This document shows, in pieces, positions 6,709 to 24,310 of a DNA stretch of 32,220 bases. Each line of letters starts with the position of its first letter. Position 1 is the stretch's first letter. A model generated the notes under the pieces. The model did no database searches. It was not told the DNA's origin and was given only the letters and a program-made list of their open reading frames with translations. The DNA is from Candidatus Omnitrophota bacterium (lineage in GTDB: Bacteria > Omnitrophota > Gorgyraeia > Gygaellales > Profunditerraquicolaceae): assembly GCA_026387475.1 (NCBI GenBank), contig JAPLLN010000045.1, positions 1-32,220 of the forward strand, read 5' to 3'. A program made the position numbers and the translations under genes.

Positions 6709-8793
6709 ATGCAAGGAAATAACCTTAAGGTAAAGTTCGGCTCAAATGACATCATTTTAGAAACCGGCAGGATCGCCAAGCAGGCTAACGGCTCGATCAC
6801 TATCTCTTGCGGCGGGACCGTGGTTCTGGTCACCGCGTGTATGTCCAAGGATATTAAGGAAGGAAGGGATTTCTTTCCTCTTACCGTGGAGTACCAGGAG
6901 AAGACGTACGCCGCAGGCAGAATTCCGGGAGGTTTCTTTAAAAGAGAAGGCAGGCCGTCCGAGAGCGAAATATTGACCTCAAGGTTGACTGACAGGCCGA
7001 TCAGGCCGTTATTTCCTAAGGGATTCTTAAACGAAGTCCAGGTTATGGCGATGGTCTTATCCAGCGACGGGGAGAATGACCCCGATGTATTAGCTGTGAC
7101 CGGGGCATCGGCGGCTTTATCCATTTCCGATATACCTTTTAACGGGCCTCTGGCGTGCTGCCGCGTAGGCCGCGTTGAGAATCAGTTGGTTTTAAATCCT
7201 ACTTACGCCCAGTTAGACAAAGCGGATTTAGATGTGGTCATCGCCGCAAATAAATCGGGTGTTGTGATGCTGGAATCCAAGGCGCAGGAAGTTTCAGAAG
7301 ACGATTATTTAGCCGCGGTGAAGTTCGGCTATGAGAATCTGCAGTCGTTGATCACTTTGCAGGAAGAATTCACCCGCAAATTCGGCAAACCTAAGGCTAA
7401 GGTCGATTTGAAGATCTTGGACCCGGCGCTGGTAAAGAAACTTGAAGAGTTGGCAAAAGATAAATTAAAGACAGTCTATGACCTGCCCAAAAAAGAAGAG
7501 CGCGAAGATGCGGTAGATGCTTTAGCTAAAGAATTGGAAGTAAAGCTTGTCGCCGAGGGATTTGTGGCGGCGGATATAAAAATGGGGCTGCAGGATGTGG
7601 AGCAGGATCAGGTCAGAAGGATGATCCTTGACGAGCATAAACGTTTTGACGGCCGCGGATTTAAAGATATCCGGCCGATCTCCTGCGAAGTAGCGGTCTT
7701 GCCCCGCACTCACGGATCGAGTTTATTTACCCGCGGGCAGACGCAGAGTTTAGCCGTAACCACATTAGGCACCGGCGACGACGAGCAGATGATCGAGGCC
7801 TTAGAGGGCGAGAAATATAAATCTTTTATGCTGCATTATAACTTTCCGTCTTTTAGCGTCGGCGAAACCAAGCCGATACGCGGACCGGGAAGGCGCGAAA
7901 TAGGGCACGGCGCGTTAGCAGAGCGCGCGCTGTTAGCGGTTATGCCCGGTAAAGATAAATTTCCTTATACCGTGAGAGTCGTTTCCGAAATACTTGAGTC
8001 TAACGGCTCATCGAGCATGGCCTCGGTGTGCGCCGCGACGTTATCATTAATGGACGCAGGTGTCCCCATAAGGGATGCAGTCGGCGGAGTCGCCTTAGGT
8101 TTAGTCAAAGAAGGCAAAAAAGCAGTGATCATTACCGATATCGCCGGATTAGAGGATCATTTCGGAGATATGGATTTTAAAGTAGCGGGTACAAAGAAGG
8201 GGATCACCGCGGTCCAGCTGGATCTAAAGATTGACGGCATCTCCATCGACCTGTTAAGGGATTGCCTCGCGCAGTCCAAAGAGGGGAGATTATTTATTCT
8301 GGATAAAATGGCGACGGCGCTTACTGCGCCGCGCGAAGCTTTATCCAGCTATGCCCCGCGCATTGAAGTCATTAAGATCAATACCGAAAAGATCGGCGCA
8401 GTCATCGGCCCGGGCGGTAAGACCATTAAAGGTATTATCGCAGCCACCGGCGCTTCCGTTGATATTCAGGATGACGGCACGGTCCTCATCGGCTCGACTG
8501 ACGCGGCCAAGTCTGCGCAGGCGATACAGATGATCAAGGCTATTACCGATGATGTCGAAGTCGGGCACATCTATATAGGAAAGGTCAAGCGCATCACTAA
8601 TTTCGGCGCATTCGTTGAGATCGCTCCCGGCAAAGACGGGTTGGTCCATGTTTCGGAGCTTTCGGATAAATTTGTCAAGACCGTCGAAGAAGTGCTTAAG
8701 ATCGGCGATGAAGTCAAGGTCAAGGTCATCGGTATCGATGAGCTGGGCCGGGTCAAATTAAGCAAGAAGCAGGCGGATCAACCAGCAAGTTAA
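6709..8793 (+). CDS. pnp: Polyribonucleotide nucleotidyltransferase (PNPase)
   Basis: Two RNase PH domains, KH (IGAVIGPGGKTIKGI) and S1 (VGHIYIGKVKRITNFGAFVEIAPGKDGLVHVSEL). Confidence 0.97.
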   Translation: MQGNNLKVKFGSNDIILETGRIAKQANGSITISCGGTVVLVTACMSKDIKEGRDFFPLTVEYQEKTYAAGRIPGGFFKREGRPSESEILTSRLTDRPIRPLFPKGFLNEVQVMAMVLSSDGENDPDVLAVTGASAALSISDIPFNGPLACCRVGRVENQLVLNPTYAQLDKADLDVVIAANKSGVVMLESKAQEVSEDDYLAAVKFGYENLQSLITLQEEFTRKFGKPKAKVDLKILDPALVKKLEELAKDKLKTVYDLPKKEEREDAVDALAKELEVKLVAEGFVAADIKMGLQDVEQDQVRRMILDEHKRFDGRGFKDIRPISCEVAVLPRTHGSSLFTRGQTQSLAVTTLGTGDDEQMIEALEGEKYKSFMLHYNFPSFSVGETKPIRGPGRREIGHGALAERALLAVMPGKDKFPYTVRVVSEILESNGSSSMASVCAATLSLMDAGVPIRDAVGGVALGLVKEGKKAVIITDIAGLEDHFGDMDFKVAGTKKGITAVQLDLKIDGISIDLLRDCLAQSKEGRLFILDKMATALTAPREALSSYAPRIEVIKINTEKIGAVIGPGGKTIKGIIAATGASVDIQDDGTVLIGSTDAAKSAQAIQMIKAITDDVEVGHIYIGKVKRITNFGAFVEIAPGKDGLVHVSELSDKFVKTVEEVLKIGDEVKVKVIGIDELGRVKLSKKQADQPAS

Positions 8794-8794
8794 G

Positions 8795-10996
8795 GTGAAA
8801 GAGAAAAGGCTTAATGAAGTTAAAGGAGTAATCCTTTTTGCTCTGGGGCTGATGGTGTTAGCCAGCCTCATCCGTTTTGACCGCCTTGACCTGGCATTCT
8901 ACACATCCCACCCCAATATCCCCGCCAAGAATTTCCTGGGTATTTTCGGAGCGTATCTCGGCGGAATAATCATATTTTTATTCGGCAGGCCTACGAGTTT
9001 TATCCTCCCGGTTTTAGTCCTGGCTTTAGGCGTAAAGTTTTTCCGTCAGCACGAGCCTTATTTAAGCATCCCGCGTATCCTGGGGATGCTTTTGCTTTTG
9101 TTATCCCTAAGCTCGCTCATCGGGATGTTCAATTTAAGCAACCAATACGTCAGATTTTATCTGTCGGGATTCTTCGGCGCTGCGATCTCAAGTTTTATTA
9201 CCAGCTATTTCAGCCGCTTAGGCGGTTTTATTATTTTTATCACCTTTATTATACTGTCACTTGCCCTGGTAACCGAGATCATGATCTCCTCTTTATTCAT
9301 GAACACGGTGGATAAGACTAAATCATTCTTCGGCTTACTCGCTCCTATCTTTAAACTCAAGAGAAGAGAGAAGGCTACTCCGGTTAAAATCAAACCGCTT
9401 GCGGTCAATGGTATCAAACCCGCGGTCATCCCTAAAAAAGAAGAATCGCTTGTTTCAGAACCGCAGGCATTAATTAAACCGAAAATTCAGATCAAGACTA
9501 AGCCCGCAGAACCGGCGCCCAAAGTAAGGCCGCAGGAATTAAAGATCGGCGATTATCATCTTCCGTCTCTGGATCTATTGGATACGCCTCCGCCGTTTGA
9601 AGCGCGCCAAATCAAGGATGACCTGGAGGCAACCGCCAGAATACTTGAAGAAACGCTGGAAGATTTCGGTATATCGGCTAAGGTCACGGATATCGAGCGC
9701 GGCCCGGTGATCACGCGCTATGAACTTGAACCTGCGCCGGGTGTTAAAGTAAATAGCATTGCCACTTTAAGCGACGATATCGCTTTAGCGATGAAAGCGC
9801 AGTCAGTAAGGATCATTGCGCCCATCCCCGGAAAAGGCAGGGTCGGCGTAGAAGTGCCGAATACGCAAGGCAGCTTTGTTTATTTGAAAGATGTGTTGGC
9901 CTCGAATGAATATCAGGGAGCTAAAACAGATCTCCCTCTGGCGTTAGGAAAAGATATCACCGGTAAATCCGTAGTCGCAGACCTTGACGATATGCCCCAT
10001 ATTTTGATCGCAGGGACTACGGGCTCGGGTAAGACTGTTTGTGTTAATTCGCTTATACTCTCGCTTCTTTATAAATTATCCCCTAATGACCTGAAGTTCC
10101 TGATGGTCGACCCGAAGATGGTCGAGCTTATGCCTTTTAACGGTCTGCCGCACATGCTCTGCCCCGTAGTCACTGACGCTAAAAAGGCGTCGGTTGCGCT
10201 TAACTGGGTGGTGAATGAAATGGAAGAGCGCTATCAATTGCTGGCCAAGGTGGGGGCGAGGAATATCGAGGCTTATAATGAAAAACAGGAGAAGCTTCCT
10301 TATATAATAGTGATCATCGATGAATTCGCGGATCTGATGACTGTTGCGCGCGATCAAATCGAAAACGCGATCACCCGCCTGGCGCAGTTATCCCGCGCGG
10401 TAGGCATTCATTTGATGCTGGCTACGCAAAGGCCTTCGGTCGATGTTATCACCGGCGTTATCAAGGCAAATCTGCCTGCCCGCGTATCTTTTAAGGTAGC
10501 CTCGAAAGTTGACTCCCGCACCGTGCTGGATATGAACGGCGCGGATAAATTATTAGGTAAGGGCGATATGTTATTTTTACGGCCCGGCGAAGAAAAATTG
10601 ATCCGTATTCAGGGTACACTTGTATCGGATAAAGAGATCGAAAAGGTGGTAAGTTTTATCAAGGCCCAGGCTGAACCGGTCTATGACGAAGAGATTCTGA
10701 AAGAACAGCAGAAGTCGCATATGGGCACCGGGGAAAAAGACGAATTTTATGATGAAGCGGTAAGGGTGATCATGGAGAGTAATCAGGCGTCGGTCTCAAT
10801 TTTGCAGAGGCGCATGCGGTTAGGTTATACCCGCGCTGCGCGTATCATCGACCAGATGGAATTAGAAGGCCTGGTCGGGCCGTTTGAAGGAAGTAAACCG
10901 CGCAGGATCATGGTAGACAGGACTCCGTGGCTTGAGAAGGCGGCGATGGGAGGAAAGATCCAGGAGCAGACAGGCGAGGAGGGCGCGGATGCATGA
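8795..10996 (+). CDS. ftsK: DNA translocase FtsK/SpoIIIE
   Basis: N-terminal TM region, Walker A 'IAGTTGSGKTVCVNSL', 'IIVIIDEFADLM', C-terminal gamma winged helix 'SVSILQRRMRLGYTRAARIIDQMELEGLVGP'; GTG start. Confidence 0.96.
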   Translation: MKEKRLNEVKGVILFALGLMVLASLIRFDRLDLAFYTSHPNIPAKNFLGIFGAYLGGIIIFLFGRPTSFILPVLVLALGVKFFRQHEPYLSIPRILGMLLLLLSLSSLIGMFNLSNQYVRFYLSGFFGAAISSFITSYFSRLGGFIIFITFIILSLALVTEIMISSLFMNTVDKTKSFFGLLAPIFKLKRREKATPVKIKPLAVNGIKPAVIPKKEESLVSEPQALIKPKIQIKTKPAEPAPKVRPQELKIGDYHLPSLDLLDTPPPFEARQIKDDLEATARILEETLEDFGISAKVTDIERGPVITRYELEPAPGVKVNSIATLSDDIALAMKAQSVRIIAPIPGKGRVGVEVPNTQGSFVYLKDVLASNEYQGAKTDLPLALGKDITGKSVVADLDDMPHILIAGTTGSGKTVCVNSLILSLLYKLSPNDLKFLMVDPKMVELMPFNGLPHMLCPVVTDAKKASVALNWVVNEMEERYQLLAKVGARNIEAYNEKQEKLPYIIVIIDEFADLMTVARDQIENAITRLAQLSRAVGIHLMLATQRPSVDVITGVIKANLPARVSFKVASKVDSRTVLDMNGADKLLGKGDMLFLRPGEEKLIRIQGTLVSDKEIEKVVSFIKAQAEPVYDEEILKEQQKSHMGTGEKDEFYDEAVRVIMESNQASVSILQRRMRLGYTRAARIIDQMELEGLVGPFEGSKPRRIMVDRTPWLEKAAMGGKIQEQTGEEGADA

Positions 10997-11768
10997 GGCC
11001 GGAGAAAAATTAAAAAAGATACGCCTGGCTAAAGGACTTACTCTCGAAGAAGTCCAGAAGAAGACCAAAATACACTTAAGCATTCTAAAGGCGATCGAAG
11101 GAGAGAGCCTGACGAATCTAAACCCGGTTTATTTAAAGGGATTTGTAAAAATTTACTGTAAATTTCTGGGGTTAGACCCTAAAGAGTGCATCCCCGATTA
11201 TCAGGATAATCCGCGGACTTTTAGCGTACATAAGGCCGAAGAAGAGCATACGCAACCTAAACCGATAGCGGAAATAAAGACTTCCTCGTCCAGGGGCCCG
11301 GCTTTTACCCTCCCGTTCGATCTGAAGAAGGCCATCGTAATTGTTTTAGTTGTCTTTGTAGCCGTATTTACTTTCTATAATCTGGGTAAATTTATTTCAA
11401 GCCGCAAAAAGGCTGAACCGGTCGCCGCAGCAACGGAAGCGCAGAAGCAAGGCACGCAGCCGGCTAAGGCGCCAATGAACACAACTCCGCAGGCCAAAGA
11501 ATTACCTTCGGTTGTAAGGCTTACCGTTATTGCCCGGGAAAATTGTATGGTCACAGTCAAGGTTGACGGCAAGGTCTTTCGTCAGGGCCTGATCGCCAAA
11601 GGGCGCTCCGACAGCTGGAAGGCTAAAGACAAAATAGAGTTGAGCGTTACCAATGCCGGCGGCGTTGAGCTGATCGTGAATTCGCAGCGTTTTCCTAATA
11701 TCGGCAAGAAGAAGCAGAAGATCAATAATATTATTATTGATAAGCAGGGCCTGCATATCCCGCGGTGA
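10989..11768 (+). CDS. RodZ-like HTH protein with single TM and C-terminal DUF4115-like domain
   Basis: 'MHEAGEKLKKIRLAKGLTLEEVQKKTKIHLSILKAIEGESLTNLNPVYLKGFVKIYCKFLGLDP' HTH_25; TM ~11335-11390; DUF4115-like tail. ATG 10989 preferred over 10932, which lies deep inside ftsK. Confidence 0.85.
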   Translation: MHEAGEKLKKIRLAKGLTLEEVQKKTKIHLSILKAIEGESLTNLNPVYLKGFVKIYCKFLGLDPKECIPDYQDNPRTFSVHKAEEEHTQPKPIAEIKTSSSRGPAFTLPFDLKKAIVIVLVVFVAVFTFYNLGKFISSRKKAEPVAAATEAQKQGTQPAKAPMNTTPQAKELPSVVRLTVIARENCMVTVKVDGKVFRQGLIAKGRSDSWKAKDKIELSVTNAGGVELIVNSQRFPNIGKKKQKINNIIIDKQGLHIPR

Positions 11769-13009
11769 AAAATAAAGTCGGAATATTAAGTTTAGGCTGC
11801 CCCAGGAACCTGGTGGACTCGGAAAATATCTTAGGCAGGCTTCTGCTTAAGGGGCACGCGATCGTGGATATGGATAAGGCGGACGTAGGTATCGTCAATA
11901 CCTGCGCCTTTATCGACGAGGCTAAACGCGAATCGATCGACGCGATTTTGGACCTGATCCGGTTAAAGAAGTCCGGAAAATTAAAGAAGGTCATTGTTTA
12001 CGGCTGCTTGAGCCAGCGTTATAAAGAAGAGCTGAAAAAAGAGCTCCCCGAGGTCGACGCCTTTATCGGCAAGGTTTCTCTGAATCACGAAGTAAAAAGA
12101 TATCCGATCACCCCTAAGCATTTTGCTTATCTTAAAGTCTGCGAAGGGTGTATTAACAGCTGCAGCTACTGCGTAATACCCAAGATAAAAGGTAAGTTTG
12201 TGAGTCTCGAAGAAGAAGCGATCTTAAAAAAGGTAGCCAAATTCAGCGCAGAAAAATTATCGGAGCTGAATATCATCGGCCAGGATATCACCGGCTACGG
12301 GGTTGATATCTGCGGCAAGCCGGAGTTAGCGGCGATATTAAAAAAGATCGTGCGTCAGGCAAAGAATATACGCTGGATAAGGCTTTTATATTTACATCCC
12401 GACCGCGTAGGGGATGATTTGTTGGAGTTGATTAGGGTTGAACCGAAGCTCTGTAAATATATCGATCTGCCTATTCAGCATATCAATAACCGCATATTGA
12501 AATTGATGAACCGGAGCACCGGCAGGGTTGAAATCGAAAAGCTGATCAAAAAGGTAAGAAAAAGTATCCCCGGTGTGGCGATCCGCACTTCGGTGATAAC
12601 AGGCTTCCCCACTGAAACGGAGCAGGAATTTAAAGAGCTTCTGGATTTCATCAAAGAGGCAAAGTTCGACCGGCTGGGCGCTTTTACTTATTCTGCCGAA
12701 GAAGGGACTCGAGCTTTTGGCCTTAAACCGCAGGTGCCTGATGAGGTAAAGCGTGAGAGATTTGACAGGATTATGACGGCGCAGCAGGAGGTCTCTGTTG
12801 ATAATAACCGTAGATTGTTAGGCAAGACCATGGAGGTCCTGATCGACGAAAAAGGCGAGGGAACTTACCTGGGGCGCACCCAGTCTGACGCGCCGGAAGT
12901 CGACGGCATGGTTTACGTAAACTCCGGCCGCAAGCTTAAGCCCGGAGATTTTGTAAAAGTAAAAATAACCGATACCCTTGAATACGACCTTGTAGGAGAA
13001 AACCTATGA
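11765..13009 (+). CDS. rimO: Ribosomal protein S12 methylthiotransferase RimO
   Basis: 'VGILSLGCPRNLVDSENILGRL', radical SAM 'CEGCINSCSYCVIPKIKGK', C-terminal TRAM-like domain; GTG start overlapping upstream TGA. Confidence 0.95.
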   Translation: MKNKVGILSLGCPRNLVDSENILGRLLLKGHAIVDMDKADVGIVNTCAFIDEAKRESIDAILDLIRLKKSGKLKKVIVYGCLSQRYKEELKKELPEVDAFIGKVSLNHEVKRYPITPKHFAYLKVCEGCINSCSYCVIPKIKGKFVSLEEEAILKKVAKFSAEKLSELNIIGQDITGYGVDICGKPELAAILKKIVRQAKNIRWIRLLYLHPDRVGDDLLELIRVEPKLCKYIDLPIQHINNRILKLMNRSTGRVEIEKLIKKVRKSIPGVAIRTSVITGFPTETEQEFKELLDFIKEAKFDRLGAFTYSAEEGTRAFGLKPQVPDEVKRERFDRIMTAQQEVSVDNNRRLLGKTMEVLIDEKGEGTYLGRTQSDAPEVDGMVYVNSGRKLKPGDFVKVKITDTLEYDLVGENL

Positions 13010-20113: not shown

Positions 20114-20187
20114 CGGGGAGTGGCCCAGTTTGGTAGGGCGTTTGGTTCGGGACCAAAAGGCCGTGGGTTCAAGTCCCACCTCCCCGA
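20114..20187 (+). tRNA. tRNA-Pro (anticodon CGG)
   Basis: Acceptor CGGGGAG/CTCCCCG, anticodon arm TTTGG-TTCGGGA-CCAAA, T arm GTGGG-TTCAAGT-CCCAC; CCA not encoded (followed by CAT). Confidence 0.96.
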
Positions 20188-20239
20188 CATTAATTATCTC
20201 GTAAGAGTCGGAAGCGTTATAACCGGAAAGGAGTAGGGT

Positions 20240-20779
20240 GTGCAAAAACCATTATTAGTCATGGTCTTAAGTTTAATTCTTGGTTCTCCTGCCTCACTCT
20301 GCCATGCTGAGCAGCCGGAGGAAATCGTATTTACTACTTATTATCCTTCGCCTTACGGCAACTATAATGAACTGCAAACTAATAAATTGGCAGTGGGGGA
20401 TACTAATGGCGACGGAAAGGTTGATGCCAGCGATGTGCCGCCTGCTAATGGGCAAATATATGCGGCAAGAAGCATGATCTTAAGGCCACAGGGTCTTCCT
20501 GCTACTGATGTGAGAGAGGGTGAGCTTGTCTATAACAATGCTGACAAAGCACTTTATCTTTATAATGGCGCCAGCTGGGTAAAGCAGGGAGTTGCCGGAG
20601 GAGGGGGTTGTTATGTATCTTATTCCGGAAGCTGTCTTACGGGGTTTGTTGATAAGGGTTCAGCCGGTAGTTATGGCGCCTGTCTTTACGCTTGCTGGAC
20701 TTCCCGGCCGCCGGGTGCCGGTTGCGTGTCCGGAGGAACTAGCTATCATATCGGTGATGCGCGTGTATGTTGCCAGTAG
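20240..20779 (+). CDS. Secreted Cys-rich surface protein with 'TTYYPSPYGNYNEL' motif and EF-hand/dockerin-like loop
   Basis: GTG start with SD aaaggag; signal peptide (LLVMVLSLILGSPASLCHA); FTTYYPSPYGNYNELQTNKLAVGD; DTNGDGKVDASD; 'EGELVYNNADKALYLYNGASWV'; seven-Cys C-terminus. Confidence 0.8.
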   Translation: MQKPLLVMVLSLILGSPASLCHAEQPEEIVFTTYYPSPYGNYNELQTNKLAVGDTNGDGKVDASDVPPANGQIYAARSMILRPQGLPATDVREGELVYNNADKALYLYNGASWVKQGVAGGGGCYVSYSGSCLTGFVDKGSAGSYGACLYACWTSRPPGAGCVSGGTSYHIGDARVCCQ

Positions 20780-21540
20780 TTTTCTGTTTTCTTCTTTTCT
20801 TTAGCGCTACTCCCTGCTCTGCTTATGATATTAGCCCTTATCTGAAACAGGCACCTTCTAAATCTAGGCCTGTTTTGAATCTTGTATTCTGTTCTTTGAG
20901 TTATCAGGATAAAAATATCTTTTTGAAAGACGTAGATCGGCTTGCGCAGGAGCTAAAAAAGACTAAGCCTTTTGATGGATTTAGCGATTTTTCTTTCTGG
21001 TTTGTCAGCCTTACGAAGAAAGAAGAGGGTTTGCTATTTACGTTAACTCCCGGGTTTCCTCCCCTTAGGGCGAAAAGCGATTTTCTTCAGGATATTTTTG
21101 TTAAACTCGGCCGGGATTACAAGTTGATCATCGTTGATAGGACCGGCTTAGTCTCTTGTGCGGAGTTATCCTCAATCAATATGACCTCCTTGATAATACT
21201 CGGCAGGAAAATGTATGCAAGCGAAGAATCTTTCAGTAAAGGCTTCTTACATGAATTAGGGCATTCCTTGGGACTGCGCGATGAATGCGTTGCTTGCGAA
21301 GAACTTTCTTCGGCGGGCGAGCCGAATTGTGCCAGGGACAAGGAAGAGGCAATTAAGTGGTGGGGCGATCTTGTGGGTAAAGATCCGCGGGTAAATTACA
21401 TTTCCGGATGTTGCGGGAATAAGGGTTATATCCGTCCGACAGCGGTTTCTTTGATGAATGACCCGGATAAGGCTGATGATTTTGGCCCGGTCAATGAACG
21501 CTATTTAAAGCAGGTGTTGAGTTTACCGGCGAAGAAATAG
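20767..21540 (+). CDS. Putative secreted M64 (IgA peptidase)-like zinc metalloprotease
   Basis: Signal peptide (FCFLLFFSATPCSA); 'FLHELGHSLGLRDEC' HExxH + downstream D/E; N-terminal part resembles M64 ('LVFCSLSYQDKNIFLKDVDRLAQELKKTKPFDGFSDFSFWFVSL'). Confidence 0.72.
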   Translation: MLPVVFCFLLFFSATPCSAYDISPYLKQAPSKSRPVLNLVFCSLSYQDKNIFLKDVDRLAQELKKTKPFDGFSDFSFWFVSLTKKEEGLLFTLTPGFPPLRAKSDFLQDIFVKLGRDYKLIIVDRTGLVSCAELSSINMTSLIILGRKMYASEESFSKGFLHELGHSLGLRDECVACEELSSAGEPNCARDKEEAIKWWGDLVGKDPRVNYISGCCGNKGYIRPTAVSLMNDPDKADDFGPVNERYLKQVLSLPAKK

Positions 21541-21541
21541 G

Positions 21542-24310
<2,769 letters not shown>

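Follow-up and report, generated by a model that had tools for sequence, protein, structure and literature searches.

The DNA analysed here, a stretch of 32,220 nucleotides referred to as the window, carries two overlapping genes inserted together between a tRNA-Pro gene and an acylphosphatase gene, the first (ORF1) coding for a predicted secreted protein with a Cys-rich C-terminal head and the second (ORF2) for a predicted secreted metzincin related to the M64 family. Pairs of this kind recur in other Omnitrophota, and the C-terminal domain of ORF1 corresponds in relatives to the variable region of a diversity-generating retroelement (DGR). The best reading, to which we give about an even chance, is a surface-fibre protein with a hypervariable-type binding head that would be exported with its own protease. 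With the same half measure of confidence, the pair could be regarded as an Omnitrophota islet of two genes, mobile or acquired repeatedly, through which a binding protein would be exported with its own protease. The source genome is a draft (1.26 Mb, 118 contigs, 82% complete), and core genes flank the pair, ribD and ribE on one side and acylphosphatase and ligA (assigned from its sequence) on the other. The features of this region are the following:

20114..20188, + strand: tRNA-Pro (CGG), bordering the insertion; the right border carries no copy of the tRNA 3' end
20191..21551, + strand: two-gene insertion (islet, ~1.36 kb) between tRNA-Pro and acylphosphatase, from the alignment to genome G395, boundaries good to a few bases
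20240..20779, + strand: ORF1, YYPSPYG-family predicted secreted protein with a Cys-rich variable-type C-terminal head, GTG start, 179 aa
20767..21540, + strand: ORF2, predicted secreted M64-related metzincin, ATG start, 257 aa, 13-nt overlap with ORF1
21542-21826 of the window: acylphosphatase, listed start 21542, likelier ATG 21554

The insertion is delimited by an intact empty site in a genome of the same genus (G395, locus L148), in which ribE, tRNA-Pro, acylphosphatase and ligA follow one another with ~3 nt in place of the pair. In the global alignment, the left flank is identical at 116 of 119 positions up to 20190 and the right flank at 185 of 209 positions from 21552, and the ~1,361 bp between them hold just ORF1 and ORF2, with the ORF1 start 51 nt downstream of the tRNA-Pro(CGG) end at 20188. 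Several other members of the window's family also show the order ribE-tRNA-Pro-acylphosphatase without the pair; because these and G395 lack it, the site was probably empty in the ancestor, and the window would carry a clean insertion. Since homology to the empty site starts at 21552, acylphosphatase probably begins at 21554 and not at 21542, the latter being probably an insertion-derived start. The third-position GC of the pair (0.41 and 0.46, vs 0.57 for ligA and 0.58 for ribE) is consistent with a foreign origin. Att-like repeats and inverted ends were looked for at the insertion borders and none were seen; lacking an att-like repeat, site-specific integration with tRNA duplication was ruled out. 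ORF2 relatives were also sought in viral contigs, phages and plasmids; none were found, and a phage or plasmid origin was rejected on this ground. An earlier reading from the sequence only had described two ORFs with a 13-nt overlap behind tRNA-Pro and between core genes, which the coordinates confirm; it had missed both the clean insertion relative to the same-genus empty site and the diversification of the head by DGRs in relatives.

ORF2 has the following elements:

20767..20823, + strand: predicted hydrophobic signal segment, ORF2 residues 1-19, from sequence: MLPVVFCFLLFFSATPCSA^YD, without a basic residue
21250..21285, + strand: zinc/catalytic motif HELGHSLGLRDE, HExxHxxGxxD, ORF2 residues 162-173
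21448..21459, + strand: Met-turn S-L-M-N (Met230) of ORF2

The protein contains HELGHSLGLRDEC, and its motif HELGHSLGLRD corresponds to HExxHxxGxxD, with the same spacing in the aligned relatives. Across 11 aligned sequences, H162, E163, H166, G169, D172, E173 and Met230 do not vary, so that ORF2 combines the two hallmarks of metzincins, HExxHxxG/NxxH/D and a downstream Met-turn methionine. The zinc site, on which the sequence-only reading had staked its protease, is complete and invariant, with the structural model at low confidence after residue 173. Of the 384 Omnitrophota genomes sampled, 13, scattered over several families, contain relatives with ~47-60% identity and strong E-values; a further locus, L022, comes from another collection. 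Their invariant H162, E163, H166, D172 and M230, together with the invariant Gly/Cys pattern among ORF1 relatives, establish both ORFs as real beyond chance.

The proposed likeness of the N-terminal block to M64 is real, and the fold of ORF2 is probably nearest to this family. Pfam PF09471 (M64) matches residues 45-89 weakly, with E=0.0016, at 18.1 bits vs a gathering cut-off of 26, and a PDB profile search supports the resemblance with a match to the IgA protease of T. ramosa (E=4e-5). In the AlphaFold model (pLDDT 67) the core is good and residues 173-238 are poor. The top 17 Foldseek matches are all M64 (E 9e-6 to 5e-4), with a query TM of only 0.35-0.41 and residues 173-238 at low confidence, and archaemetzincin and ADAM-8 come next in the PDB. 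Membership of M64 was not upheld. M64 proteases, or igalysins, are defined by HExxHxxxGxxD, in which an additional residue precedes Gly (PMC12237041; also PMC12402451). The zinc motif of ORF2 has no such residue, and for this reason ORF2 is placed as a metzincin related to M64 yet outside it. An NCBIfam snapalysin match was sub-threshold (E=0.13).

The elements of ORF1 are listed here:

20240..20308, + strand: predicted signal peptide, ORF1 residues 1-23, from sequence: MQKPLLVMVLSLILGSPASLCHA^EQ
20333..20359, + strand: TTYYPSPYG motif, ORF1 residues 32-40, read in sequence
20399..20434, + strand: single EF-hand/dockerin-like Ca loop DTNGDGKVDASD, 12 residues, ORF1 residues 54-65
20516..20581, + strand: fibre-type connecting segment EGELVYNNADKALYLYNGASWV, ORF1 residues 93-114, conserved in the family
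20600..20776, + strand: seven-Cys C-terminal head, C...C.xGF...GSYGxC...PPGxxC...G....CC, homologous to the DGR variable regions of relatives

The YYPSPYG motif, the Ca-like loop, the fibre-like segment, the seven C-terminal cysteines and the ORF2 motif are thus all present as first described. Of the two signal peptides claimed, that of ORF1 is predicted; the N-terminus of ORF2 has no basic residue, basic n-regions are present in its relatives, and hydrophobicity together with these relatives points to a signal peptide there as well. Loops resembling that of ORF1 are also found in its relatives. The Dockerin_1 match to the loop (E=0.026) lies below the cut-off, and a dockerin type I assignment was rejected, with a single sub-threshold loop vs the two Ca-binding repeats needed; sub-threshold dockerin and EGF matches were set aside. 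At least one YYPSPYG match is found in 108 of 384 genomes of the phylum, with few copies each and very different C-termini. Four other YYPSPYG proteins end in the S74 fibre chaperone, which argues for a fibre-like family, and a Pfam search did not find a C-terminal S74 domain in ORF1. The VYNxxDKxLYxYNGxxWV segment of ORF1 resembles fibre repeats. A profile search of the PDB with ORF1 gave no meaningful match; its AlphaFold model is poor (pLDDT 46), and the best PDB match of this low-confidence model in Foldseek is a weak one (E=0.3), to the trimerisation domains of collagen XV/XVIII. No paper containing the YYPSPYG string was found in a search of the literature outside subscription journals and preprints.

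Further members of the family were observed in passing. Two more YYPSPYG genes lie in the window's genome (G000:C58:17579 and G000:C116:10481), the second also with a Cys-rich tail, of another kind. Genome G163, with 14 matches, contains tandem arrays of YYPSPYG genes with differing C-termini (C122, C115, C58 and C63; L109-L112), which suggests expansion of fibre-type genes by duplication with swapped ends.

All seven cysteines of the head lie after ORF1 residue 119. The head comprises ~60-85 residues, has no Pfam C-type-lectin match, and was found by a head profile in only 12 of 384 genomes; this profile scores the window at E=3e-16, but the window sequence is in the model. Among relatives, the frame C...CPxG[FW]...LGxWGxC...PPGGxC...G.A..CC is kept, and both the sequence and the length of two loops differ strongly. 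Because DGRs hypermutate its domain class in relatives, the head most likely serves recognition, with a fixed Gly/Cys frame carrying the two variable loops; its cysteines would form disulfides.

A secreted partner with a Cys-rich C-terminus stands beside the protease in 10 of 12 loci with a readable neighbour, at several chromosomal addresses, so that the two-gene surface unit proposed from the sequence gains support from a neighbourhood recurring in relatives. The ten are the window, G120/L021, G108, G116/L026, G330/L048, L022, L027, L028, G017/L024 and G239. The two readable loci without a partner beside the protease, G131/L029 and G153/L023, are both near contig ends, and the protease loci of G163 and G062 were left out of the twelve as cut by contig ends. 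The partner is adjacent to the protease except where DGR genes (L022, L048) or ~390 bp (G116) intervene, and the genes overlap by 13 nt in the window, ~4 nt in G120/L021 and ~19 nt in L027. In G239, a match to the head profile lies directly upstream of the protease gene; this is an independent confirmation, since G239 was not used to build the profile. Five of the 12 head-bearing genomes have the protease, vs 13 of 384 overall (p=1.3e-5), and the two genes are adjacent in four of the five; no protease lies beside the head genes of G100, G374, G142, G051, G094 and G223. The expectation of a recurrent neighbourhood was thus borne out, and it is the Cys-rich head, more than the YYPSPYG motif, that tracks the protease: the G017 partner has the Cys-rich end but not YYPSPYG, and the motif occurs in 108 genomes vs 13 with the protease.

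Arrival as one insertion in the window would also fit two functionally unrelated genes that hitchhiked together. We consider this very improbable, given that the association recurs at several addresses in different families. Exact YYPSPYG matches are few in protease-bearing genomes (0-14 per genome), and the probability of chance adjacency of a YYPSPYG gene and the protease over five genomes is ~1.5e-9, ignoring kinship; the recurrence led us to reject chance adjacency. The loci of G108, G120 and G330 are in related chromosomal regions and not fully independent, and differing addresses are seen around ribE/ligA, purB and ilvD and in G116, G017, L022 and L028. Separately, an in-frame stop interrupts the G108 protease gene (L008/L016, G108:C7:73417-74166), whose neighbours are two YYPSPYG genes in tandem; this points to decay or to an error in the assembly.

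In relatives, the Cys-rich C-terminal domain of ORF1 is a DGR variable region. A reverse transcriptase (RT) is found at three protease loci (L028, L022 and L048), and a template repeat (TR) and variable region (VR) with adenine-biased substitutions at two of them, at which TR adenines account for 10 of 16 differences (L028, p=6e-4) and 9 of 14 (L022, p=7e-5). The gene order is protease, ORF1-like gene, RT (YMDD) and template repeat in L028; ORF1-like gene, RT, template repeat, bAvd (E=2e-23) and protease in L022; and ORF1-like gene, Avd-like ORF, RT and protease in L048. With an adenine-specific TR/VR beside an RT (RVT_1 match), the L028 and L022 homologues qualify as DGR variable proteins. 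G100 carries an ORF1-like head gene and a truncated RT of the same clade on a contig without the protease. No fully intact cassette was seen: the RT is truncated in L022 and in G100, no TR could be detected in L048, and the VR of L028 is frameshifted. None of the other DGR RTs seen in the phylum adjoins a YYPSPYG gene, and a remote DGR serving the pair was rejected, as the additional RTs of G108 and G330 serve different targets and lack a template that matches. At L022, a ~187-bp palindromic repeat with the ends GGGTCGCGTCTTTA/TAAAGACTCGACCC was also observed at L022:5751-5937, 8762-8948 and 10448-10634 (partially at 11729-11830), in copies 95-96% identical; it brackets the block of ORF1-like, DGR and protease genes plus the next YYPSPYG gene, and is possibly a non-autonomous mobile element.

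The window's own genome, 82% complete, gave no RVT_1 match, no template and no further copy of the DNA that codes for the head. ORF1 was therefore not accepted as an active DGR target, its own genome having no detectable RT or template repeat, and its head is apparently a frozen DGR-derived type. The lack of a DGR in this genome, and a DGR link at no more than four of the loci examined, would suit a different account, in which DGRs captured the head incidentally in relatives and recognition is not its role, ORF1 having a structural or matrix function and the protease serving for turnover. This is quite unlikely in our estimation: even in heads with no DGR close by, the loops vary and the Gly/Cys frame stays fixed, and the TR-adenine substitutions of L022 and L028 fall mostly within these same loops.

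Returning to the preferred reading of a fibre with a binding head and a protease, ORF1 would be a secreted surface fibre with the YYPSPYG start, one Ca loop, the fibre-type connector and a disulfide-rich C-terminal head that is a frozen descendant of a DGR-diversified one, and ORF2 a small secreted metzincin that may be translated by overlap after ORF1. The head would most likely bind a changing extracellular target, such as a polymer, a phage or another cell's surface, and proteins at the bound site would most likely be cut by the protease exported with it. The analysis shows the sequences, the zinc site, the recurrence, the insertion and the DGR signature in relatives; export, disulfides, fibre display, binding and the protease substrate are what we infer here. 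A bolder version, rather unlikely as a whole, is a recognition-guided protease, in which a small disulfide-rich head other than a C-type lectin, hypermutated by DGRs in some lineages, steers a co-exported metzincin to changing targets, and the pair moves as an islet that persists after loss of the mutagenic machinery.

The main rival, possible though short of probable, is that the protease is a dedicated processing enzyme that trims or releases its partner surface protein, in maturation or shedding. The overlapping and apparently coupled genes, the shared predicted secretion and the arrangement of a single protease gene beside one or two partners would all be expected from it. It is mildly disfavoured by the many YYPSPYG proteins that live without a protease (motif in 108 of 384 genomes, protease in 13) and by the differing partners: the protease genes adjoin at least two types of head and, in one case, a partner that lacks YYPSPYG, so no shared cleavage site is apparent.

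Omnitrophota are mostly uncultured and how they touch other cells is little known; a recurrent cassette coupling a hypervariable head and a protease would, if true, give a testable entry point and link DGR diversification with proteolysis. ORF2 would represent a new metzincin lineage in which the fold of M64 occurs without its zinc motif. Roux et al. 2021 (PMC8144416) report systematic C-type lectin folds for annotated VR regions and expect uncharacterised ones to be further variants; the head may add a small Cys-rich scaffold, a possible new one for DGRs. Each component belongs to a known kind; our literature search turned up no description of the recurrent head-plus-metzincin cassette, of its link to DGRs or of the small variable head rich in Cys, and no papers linking Omnitrophota with DGR targets of this Cys-rich head kind were found in that search, which covered sources other than subscription journals and preprints.

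Compared to known systems, ORF1 is similar to the DGR variable proteins (Mtd, TvpA and the cellular targets of Roux et al. 2021), which are likewise secreted or at the surface with a C-terminal variable region, and RT, Avd, a template repeat and adenine-biased substitutions are also found near its relatives. It differs in its small, Cys-rich head without a Pfam C-type-lectin match and in a host genome without a detectable DGR. Phage tail fibre-like proteins with the S74 intramolecular chaperone are matched in S74 by other YYPSPYG proteins and in the fibre-repeat-like segment by ORF1; ORF1 itself has no S74, and ORF2 has no phage, plasmid or viral-contig relative. With M64 proteases (T. ramosa IgA protease, BF3526 and BACOVA_00663), ORF2 shares the N-terminal block, Asp third zinc ligand, Met-turn and probably the overall fold, whereas its zinc motif is HExxHxxGxxD, not HExxHxxxGxxD; it has only ~257 aa in all, vs the multidomain IgA protease, and lacks the Cys that the IgA protease has (C606) two positions ahead of the Met-turn methionine. 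Snapalysin (M7) and other HExxHxxGxxD metzincins have the same zinc motif as ORF2, with Asp as the third ligand, but the fold search puts M64 above all other metzincins, and the N-terminal part of ORF2 is larger than theirs.
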